Below are positions 30,053 through 33,389 of a DNA stretch of 33,493 bases, in pieces. Both the position numbers and the translations under genes were made by a program. The notes below the pieces were generated by a model. That model saw only the letters and a list, made by a program, of their open reading frames with translations. It was not told where the DNA came from and did not search any database. Numbering within the stretch: the stretch's first letter is position 1; each line of letters begins with the position of its first letter. Source of the stretch: Gemmatimonadota bacterium (GTDB lineage Bacteria; Gemmatimonadota; Gemmatimonadetes; Gemmatimonadales; GWC2-71-9); assembly GCA_016199245.1 (NCBI GenBank), contig JACQHC010000083.1:1-33493 (forward strand), written 5' to 3'.

Positions 30053-30358
30053 TCAGAGGGGCTTGATCTCCCCGGACTCAACGACATCTACAAGGTAGCC
30101 CTCGAACGCCGGCGGGATCTGCGCCGCGAGCGCCCGCGTCCGTTTCACCACGTACACCTTGATACACGGCTTGTCATCGCACAGGCCAATGGCGACTCCC
30201 GTGACCCCGGGCAGGCGCATCACGCTCTCGGTCAGTTGAGCCTGAGCCTGTTCGATCGACATCGCCTGCTTCTCCGGAGCTTCGTCGGTGGCCTCGCACG
30301 CCACCATGACGCCAATGAAAACGGCGGCGCGAACCGACCGCCACGCCGCCGCCGTCAT
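30053..30358 (-). CDS. Small putative lipoprotein resembling the N-terminal segment of the adjacent protease
   Basis: Hydrophobic N-terminus ending GVMVACEATDE. VTGVAIGLCDDKPCIKVYVVKRTRALAAQIPPAFEGYLVDVVESGEIKPL aligns by eye with the neighbour's VVGTAVGLDVAGNPVIKVYLARGEARGLPGQLEGFRLVPEVTGPIYAL. Confidence 0.75.
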   Translation of the reverse strand: MTAAAWRSVRAAVFIGVMVACEATDEAPEKQAMSIEQAQAQLTESVMRLPGVTGVAIGLCDDKPCIKVYVVKRTRALAAQIPPAFEGYLVDVVESGEIKPL

Positions 30359-30376
30359 CGCATCGCTACCGACTGG

Positions 30377-31438
30377 CTAATTGCCGTCCACGGTGACGCC
30401 GAAACGTGTCAGAACTGCATTGATTGGGTTTGCAATGGTGTACCCGCCGCCACCGGCGAAGAGCAGCGCCACCGGTCTCCGGGCGTCGGTCCCGCTCTGC
30501 ACCACGATCAGGGACCCGGAATCGCCGCCGGCCGAGAAGCCGCCGCCCACGATGACCACCTGACCCACGAACCGCGCGACGCCCGGGGTGCCGTAATTCA
30601 CGTTCACGGTCGCGTTCACCGCGTCCACACGACCCTTGGTCTGTCCTGTGGTGCGGCCGTACTTCATCACGCGCAACCCCGGGACGGCCCCAACGGTCGT
30701 CGCCCGCGGCGTGCCGTATCCGTCGGCCGGTGTGGCGTTGCCGAGCAGCGACGTGCTGGAGCGCGCAATCGCCGCGTCGATCACGTTGTTGGCGCCACCG
30801 CTGAACATGATCGGCTCGAAATCGTCGAGCGTCCCGATCGCATCCGCGGGATCCTGACCGCCGTCGTACGGGCCGGGCTGGAGCACGTTATCACCGAGCG
30901 GGGCGGCGTTGGTGTTGGCGTACACGTGATTGTTGGACAGCGCGAAGAAATTCGTGCCGTCCGTGACGCGTGCTCCGATCGTCCCGGCCGTGATGTCCGG
31001 ATGACCCGTTGACACGCCGATCGGTACGGGGCGCGGGAATCTGGCGGTTCGATCCACTGGCGGTGCCCGCGGGCGAGCCTGGGCCCCCTGCGCCATGGAG
31101 CTCAGCGCGTAGATCGGACCCGTGACCTCTGGGACTAGGCGGAAGCCCTCGAGCTGACCCGGCAGCCCCCGGGCTTCGCCGCGCGCCAGGTAGACCTTGA
31201 TCACAGGGTTGCCGGCGACGTCGAGCCCGACTGCCGTGCCCACCACGTCGGCGTCGGCCATGACGGCCGGAGTGTGCCGCTCCTGCACCTGCATGGCCCG
31301 CTCCAGGCCCTGTTGCTGACCGAGCGACAGCTCCGCCGCGCCCGTGATGTCTGGACTGTCACTCGCGCAACCGTATGCCACCGCCGCGAGAAGCGCGGCG
31401 CCAAGCGCAGCTCGGGCGCGCGTGTAAAGACGACGCAT
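30377..31438 (-). CDS. Trypsin/chymotrypsin-fold serine protease-like lipoprotein
   Basis: Lipobox AVAYGC. Catalytic-type segments ALSNNHVYA (His), NVIDAAIA (Asp) and SAGGDSGSLIV (Ser); PVALLFAGGGGYTIANPI C-terminal strand. Confidence 0.85.
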   Translation of the reverse strand: MRRLYTRARAALGAALLAAVAYGCASDSPDITGAAELSLGQQQGLERAMQVQERHTPAVMADADVVGTAVGLDVAGNPVIKVYLARGEARGLPGQLEGFRLVPEVTGPIYALSSMAQGAQARPRAPPVDRTARFPRPVPIGVSTGHPDITAGTIGARVTDGTNFFALSNNHVYANTNAAPLGDNVLQPGPYDGGQDPADAIGTLDDFEPIMFSGGANNVIDAAIARSSTSLLGNATPADGYGTPRATTVGAVPGLRVMKYGRTTGQTKGRVDAVNATVNVNYGTPGVARFVGQVVIVGGGFSAGGDSGSLIVVQSGTDARRPVALLFAGGGGYTIANPINAVLTRFGVTVDGN

Positions 31439-32532: not shown

Positions 32533-32928
32533 ATGACCCTCATTCGCATTTCCATCACCATCGCCCGTGAGCTGGTCAAGGCCATGGATCGGCGGGCCCG
32601 AGAGCTGGACCGATCGCGCAGCTGGGTGATAGGGGACGCGGCGCGGCGGTACCTGGAAGGCCCGGGCGTTACCGACAGCGCTCCCAGCGCCGCGACGGCG
32701 GCGGTTCGAGAGTCGCAGGCGCCGTACGGCATTTCGCCGGGCCTAGGCCCGTCTCGCCTGGCCCAGCTACACGCTGACCTGGCGCTCACCCCTACCGAGC
32801 GCGTGCGGGCGGCGGAACGCACCGCCCGCGCAGTCCCCCGGGGCACGCGACGCGTGGCGGACCGGATCCTCACGTTCGACCGCTACGAGGACTATCTCGA
32901 CTGGAAGCGGCGGGAGGGACTCCTGTGA
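32533..32928 (+). CDS. Ribbon-helix-helix (CopG/Arc-like) protein, candidate antitoxin/regulator
   Basis: MTLIRISITIARELVKAMDRRARELDRSRSWVIGDAARRYLEG is an RHH N-terminus. C-terminal LTPTERVRAAERTARA...ILTFDRYEDYLDWKRREGLL extension. Confidence 0.75.
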   Translation: MTLIRISITIARELVKAMDRRARELDRSRSWVIGDAARRYLEGPGVTDSAPSAATAAVRESQAPYGISPGLGPSRLAQLHADLALTPTERVRAAERTARAVPRGTRRVADRILTFDRYEDYLDWKRREGLL

Positions 32929-33389
32929 GCCGCTTCGAAACCGACCTGGCGCAGGTCTGTGCCAAGCTGAACGAGCGAGGAGCTCACTACGTTCTGGTGG
33001 GCGCCGCCGCGGTCCAGCTGTGGGGCCTCACGCGGGCCACCCGCGACATTGACATTCTGATCGAGCGAACGGAGGAGAACGCCCGGCGTGTGCTCAGTGC
33101 TCTTTCAGAGGTGGGGTTCGCTCTGGCTCGCGAATGGTTCGCGGAAGAGATCGTCAAGAAACCCGTGACCATCATCGGGGACTGGCCGCGCGTGGACATT
33201 CTCACCGTGGCCTGGAACGTTCACTACCCGGAGGCCCGGGCCGAAGCCACCGTGTTCGAGGTCGAGGGCGTGCCGATCCCCGCCGCCTCGATTGATCACC
33301 TCATCGCCTCCAAGCGAACCGGCCGCTTGCAGGATGCCGCGGACATCGAAGCGCTGGAGGAGATCAAGCGGCTGCGGGGGCTGGACTGA
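32925..33389 (+). CDS. Nucleotidyltransferase-fold protein (AbiEii/DUF6036-like), candidate toxin
   Basis: HYVLVGAAAVQLWGLTRATRDIDILIERTEENARRVLSALSEVGFAL: G-x-x-A...R-x-T-x-D-I-D nucleotidyltransferase signature. GTGA overlap with the upstream gene. Confidence 0.8.
   Translation: MSRFETDLAQVCAKLNERGAHYVLVGAAAVQLWGLTRATRDIDILIERTEENARRVLSALSEVGFALAREWFAEEIVKKPVTIIGDWPRVDILTVAWNVHYPEARAEATVFEVEGVPIPAASIDHLIASKRTGRLQDAADIEALEEIKRLRGLD

Follow-up and report, generated by a model that had tools for sequence, protein, structure and literature searches.

Free prodomain-like inhibitors have been described for the subtilases. Stand-alone subtilisin propeptide-like inhibitors (POIA1, yeast PBI2 and plant SPI-1 of MEROPS family I9, as well as Plasmodium SUB1-ProM and Toxoplasma MIC5) are encoded by small genes that copy the N-terminal pro-domain of a protease, and one of them, SUB1-ProM, is a stand-alone subtilisin propeptide whose gene adjoins protease genes at a syntenic locus and which is a potent inhibitor (PMC6993865). 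Inhibition by a prodomain is also described for the chymotrypsin-like protease Ssy5 of yeast (family S64), which is kept inactive by an N-terminal prodomain that stays non-covalently bound to it (PMC12958826). The protease family with which we are concerned here was known before from plants, in which NARROW LEAF 1 (NAL1) consists of an NAL1_N domain (PF25608) followed by a Nal1_C domain (PF25819). To our knowledge, there is no report of a free NAL1_N gene in the plant system. The literature that we searched, which covered few subscription papers, yielded no studies of bacterial NAL1 relatives and no description of a free NAL1_N domain tied to a NAL1-type protease. What appears to be new here is that, in several bacterial phyla, a NAL1-type protease is genetically linked to a free NAL1_N domain.

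The gene pair lies on the minus strand of a 33,493-nucleotide stretch of DNA from a Gemmatimonadota bacterium (the window), which lies on contig 54 of a 2.58-Mb genome that is 67% complete and in which one copy of each gene was found. The protease, a NAL1-type chymotrypsin-fold serine protease of 353 amino acids as judged by Nal1_C, Foldseek and its triad motifs, is encoded at 30377..31438 (ATG at 31438, TAG at 30377-30379), and the partner, a stand-alone N-domain copy of 101 amino acids, at 30053..30358 (ATG at 30358, TGA at 30053-30055). The partner ORF is downstream of the protease ORF and is separated from it by an 18-nt spacer (30359..30376) that is in the same frame and free of stop codons. 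Within the protease, an NAL1_N-like N-domain of one helix and three strands (31103..31291) precedes a catalytic domain (30380..31066) whose triad motifs are intact (NNHV at residue 169, DAAI at 221 and GDSG at 305, the serine being Ser307). In the partner, the conserved core spans 30056..30265 (profile positions 3-72) and has the topology alpha-beta-beta-(alpha)-beta. The protease has a putative lipoprotein-type signal with an imperfect lipobox (AYGC24), and is predicted to be exported; the partner has a lipoprotein-like signal, also with an imperfect lipobox (MVAC21). Two cysteines of the partner, Cys60 and Cys65, flank a hairpin, across which they could form a disulfide. An intermolecular disulfide is ruled out for the window pair because the only cysteine of the protease is that of its lipobox. 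Elsewhere in the window (32533-33389, plus strand), the gene for a ribbon-helix-helix protein precedes that for a nucleotidyltransferase-like protein (DUF2204/aminoglycoside adenylyltransferase-like), and the two look like a toxin-antitoxin-type pair.

The window protease belongs to the bacterial relatives of plant NAL1. Pfam PF25819 (Nal1_C) matched it above the cut-off (E 3.8e-7); NAL1_N did not score in the window protease itself and was matched in all 21 of the relatives that were scanned (best 3.7e-11), to whose N-domains that of the window protease is homologous. A profile of close relatives spans both domains of rice NAL1, N-domain and catalytic domain (E 8e-12), and the domain order is the same in plant NAL1 and the window protease, at ~20% identity. 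Consistent with this assignment, rice NAL1 structures ranked first in the Foldseek search with the protease (E 4e-16), the top 33 matches were all NAL1, and the next ranks were taken by streptogrisin/alpha-lytic proteases. Pfam S64 also matched weakly in the catalytic part. Given the NAL1 profile alignment and the presence of NAL1_N in the 21 relatives, the N-domain of the window protease is classified by sequence as an NAL1_N domain, and the small ORF as a divergent free NAL1_N-like domain.

The likeness of the partner to the region preceding the catalytic domain had been proposed in an earlier note from an alignment by eye, and pairwise BLASTP between the two proteins was marginal (30% identity, E 0.002). 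However, a profile built from 16 free copies and zero protease sequences matched the N-domain of the window protease at E 1.4e-8, and the N-domains of relatives at values down to 9.4e-14, and a profile-profile comparison of the 16 free copies with 12 N-domains gave a probability of 99.4% and an E of 8.3e-22 over 66 columns. These scores rejected chance or composition as the source of the likeness and bore out the alignment by eye; on their evidence, the 70-residue core of the partner is homologous to the protease N-domain. A joint alignment of all proteases and partners, in which the partners were placed on the N-domain, was consistent with this homology. AlphaFold2 predicted the same order of helix, strand, strand and strand in both copies, with pLDDT mostly 85-97 in the block; in the mature numbering of the protease the elements are H16-36, E42-49, E55-61 and E76-82, and the partner alone was predicted with a mean pLDDT of 90.2. 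A protease-partner fusion was also folded as a read-through (TAG=Q), a model that has no bearing on binding. The stand-alone copies reached no Pfam model, and the partner fold had no match in the PDB at E<=0.001.

The partner is therefore a small free-standing homolog of the neighboring protease's N-terminal domain, which is the structural arrangement of a stand-alone propeptide-like inhibitor, and like SUB1-ProM it is encoded next to a protease gene. Membership of MEROPS I9 was nevertheless rejected, given that there was no I9 sequence match (no Pfam match was obtained for the partner and no I9 propeptide was present among the 50 PDB matches listed) and that the topology is different, being (beta-alpha-beta)2 in I9. 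In addition, the I9 inhibitors target subtilisin, whereas the partner, a putative inhibitor, adjoins a chymotrypsin-fold protease. The weak S64 match in the catalytic part recalls Ssy5, whose prodomain acts in cis only, unlike the free partner. Neither the protease nor the partner matched any PADLOC model, and a known anti-phage defense system was rejected on that basis. The earlier note had also described the domain as propeptide-like, which cannot be taken as fact, as the solved structures of plant NAL1 (entries of 3 or 6 chains) retain the same domain in their crystal constructs; a role of the N-domain as a cleaved or inhibitory propeptide is putative.

The pairing is conserved well beyond the window. 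A search of 298 Gemmatimonadota genomes placed the protease (E<1e-20) in 85, the free domain in 84 and both in 81, compared with ~24 expected by chance (Fisher p about 7e-64); these counts are corrected for one genome in which the match was the protease's own N-domain. Seventy-eight free genes in this phylum adjoin a protease once one artifact is set aside: 67 of them are directly downstream and have the same orientation, and the other 11, which belong to a single family, are directly upstream. About 86% of the stand-alone copies are beside a protease in either gene order. The gap from the catalytic-domain match to a downstream free gene was mostly 6-950 nt and extended to about 3.1 kb in the case of proteases with long C-terminal repeats. 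In a cross-phylum set of 25 loci, gathered with the protease as the sole query and with one genome per species, a free copy adjoined the protease in 23 of the 24 scorable loci (L017, whose contig ends within the protease, was left out). This set spans Gemmatimonadota, KSB1, Planctomycetota, Nitrospirales, Desulfosarcina, Gammaproteobacteria, Bacteroidota, Anaerolineae and Actinomycetota. The free gene is convergent with the protease in Isoptericola and Nitriliruptorales, upstream of it in Algibacter and downstream on a Rubrobacter plasmid. Neither of the two outcomes that the note would have taken as a refutation was observed: the domains are related in profile searches, and the small gene adjoins such proteases in dozens of other genomes. 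Since adjacency persists in varied orders and orientations, i.e., through rearrangement, we argue for a functional link; an accidental operon was rejected by the co-occurrence in Gemmatimonadota together with the upstream, convergent and divergent arrangements. Rhizobium ruizarguesonis plasmid p4 has a NAL1-type protease gene and, in divergent orientation to it, a free NAL1_N-like ORF (L172, 2177-2440, minus strand) that is missing from the plasmid gene table and that lies beside genes for radical SAM and HEXXH peptide-modification proteins.

Signal peptides varied among the pairs. By a rough heuristic that misses GTG starts, both proteins carry one in the window, neither does in most Bacteroidota pairs, and apparently the protease alone does in some Gemmatimonadota. 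The N-terminal hydrophobic and cysteine-containing signals that the note had ascribed to both proteins hold for the window pair and are not general, as many relatives are without one or both. As such, its term "surface-proteolysis module" is too narrow: because the Bacteroidota pairs and others have no signal peptides, the system is not confined to the surface.

A tree was built from 58 N-domains and 45 free copies. One clade in it (support 0.86) comprised 41 of the free copies and no N-domains, and there were three label changes overall. This topology traces most pairs to a single ancient split and leaves a few that arose independently. The cysteine of a "PCIxV" motif, which in the window partner is Cys65, also separates the two groups, being present in 39/45 free copies versus 5/58 N-domains. 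Distances among proteases and among their partners were correlated (r 0.69; 0/2000 permutations as high), a co-variation that partly reflects species phylogeny and that shared species history alone could suffice to explain.

The protease is also encoded on 52 IMG/VR contigs, some of which may be host DNA, and most of these viral proteases retain the N-domain. There was no clear free copy on the 52 contigs, one weak match being found (L126, E 9e-4); apparent free copies on L120 and L145 were rejected as N-domains cut off from their protease by a frame break. On the contigs checked, some viral proteases are near head or tail genes. All three viral proteases tested matched PHROG 20754 "protease", and the Aeropyrum coil-shaped virus, a spiravirus, encodes the protease as well. 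The PHROG 20754 phage and spiravirus proteases have an N-domain and a catalytic domain as in the window protease, but, unlike in the bacterial pairs, no clear free partner adjoins them. In the protease tree, viral and cellular sequences mix little (7 changes) and the viral ones are mostly in other clades, so this contrast is partly a clade effect. Predicted structures from the phages Myrna and Phabba (A0A249XS89) have the same fold as the partner (TM 0.8; E 4e-5 and 3e-5, respectively), and no NAL1-type protease was matched in either phage. The Myrna protein is gp20 of this Mycobacterium phage (81 aa; L175, 8774-9019), and it matched the profile weakly with the filters off (domain E 0.004, full sequence 0.003). 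Profile searches of Myrna and Phabba at standard settings gave no free-domain match, and no free NAL1_N was found by tblastn in phage records. Proteins like Myrna gp20 may be free inhibitors that are carried by phages.

About 9-12 of some 91 partners have no protease nearby. In four genomes of one genus, the domain is C-terminal on lipoproteins with a six-bladed beta-propeller (DUF5128/NHL) that are not next to the protease (L104 3339-5003, L106 3057-4739, L107 2748-4616 and L108 315-1850). In two Gemmatimonadota genomes (L102, 2348-3367, minus strand; L114, 1441-3270, plus strand), the free domain is in frame with a PEBP/YbhB domain without an intervening stop, the PEBP domain of L114 matching PF01161 at E 2e-44. 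PEBP proteins include protease inhibitors, and the fusion is therefore a lead for an inhibitory role of the free domain. At L103 (3157-3999, minus strand), the beginning of a sequence resembling a Ser/Thr kinase is followed in frame by a free domain with a lipoprotein signal, apparently a fusion to a gene remnant. The solo, propeller-fused and PEBP-fused copies indicate that the domain is able to serve another function.

The inhibitor, folding chaperone or immunity partner that the earlier note had listed is still the right set of roles, and the viral proteases without a clear free copy shift the balance within it toward inhibitor or immunity protein and away from an obligate chaperone. We favor, at about an even chance, a dedicated trans-acting prodomain-like inhibitor or immunity/antidote protein of the NAL1-type protease, because the arrangement is like that of SUB1-ProM and because the Ssy5 prodomain is inhibitory. 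We infer physical binding, inhibition and release as its steps. The partner would most likely bind the protease at or over the surface that is filled by the protease's own N-domain; once bound, it would hold the protease inactive, either as a prodomain-mimic inhibitor or as an immunity/antidote protein; and the protease would be freed when the partner is titrated, degraded or left in another compartment. A somewhat unlikely alternative is that the free N-domain is a foldase in trans, which would aid folding or export of the protease without lasting inhibition. In alpha-lytic protease and subtilisin, the proregion can serve as an intermolecular chaperone, alpha-lytic protease and the streptogrisins, the nearest solved folds after NAL1, possess folding proregions, and the N-domain precedes the catalytic domain, at the usual proregion site. 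Some Gemmatimonadota partners, moreover, look signal-less beside a protease with an N-terminal hydrophobic segment, as would fit a cytoplasmic export chaperone, although elsewhere the partner bears its own lipoprotein-like signal. We rank a foldase below an inhibitor because the protease already owns an N-domain in cis and the viral two-domain versions manage without a clear free copy, from which it follows that an obligate extra foldase would not be needed for the fold.

The multi-chain NAL1 entries, of which the N-domain is a part, and the predicted structural copying of that domain by the partner would also suit a hetero-oligomer subunit, i.e., a partner that replaces or caps the N-domain position and thereby sets the assembly state, the localization or the access of substrates, without acting as a block of the active site. 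We think this unlikely, since the conserved cysteine and the separate clade of the free copies point to specialized divergence and not to interchangeable copies. It is quite improbable that the partner has a role of its own, as a substrate, sensor or scaffold, and merely has a domain and an operon in common with the protease: the solo and fused copies, and Myrna gp20, apparently an instance of this fold in the absence of a protease, are in keeping with such a role, but it fails to explain the frequent adjacency in Gemmatimonadota in either gene order. We also speculate, as a broader and unlikely reading, that this is a widespread undescribed bacterial protease/antidote system both halves of which are exploited by phages in a phage-host conflict, in which many phages would have the protease, in some cases within a virion module, but no antidote, and some phages, with a Myrna gp20-like protein, would have a free antidote-like domain but no protease.

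Under the inhibitor or antidote reading, the partner is probably a built-in restraint on the protease. If true, the principle of a free prodomain as regulator, known in subtilases, would extend to the chymotrypsin fold. In rice, NAL1 is a major gene for yield, and little is understood of its regulation. With a linked copy of the N-domain in bacteria, two small genes allow a direct test of whether NAL1_N functions in inhibition, in folding or in assembly.
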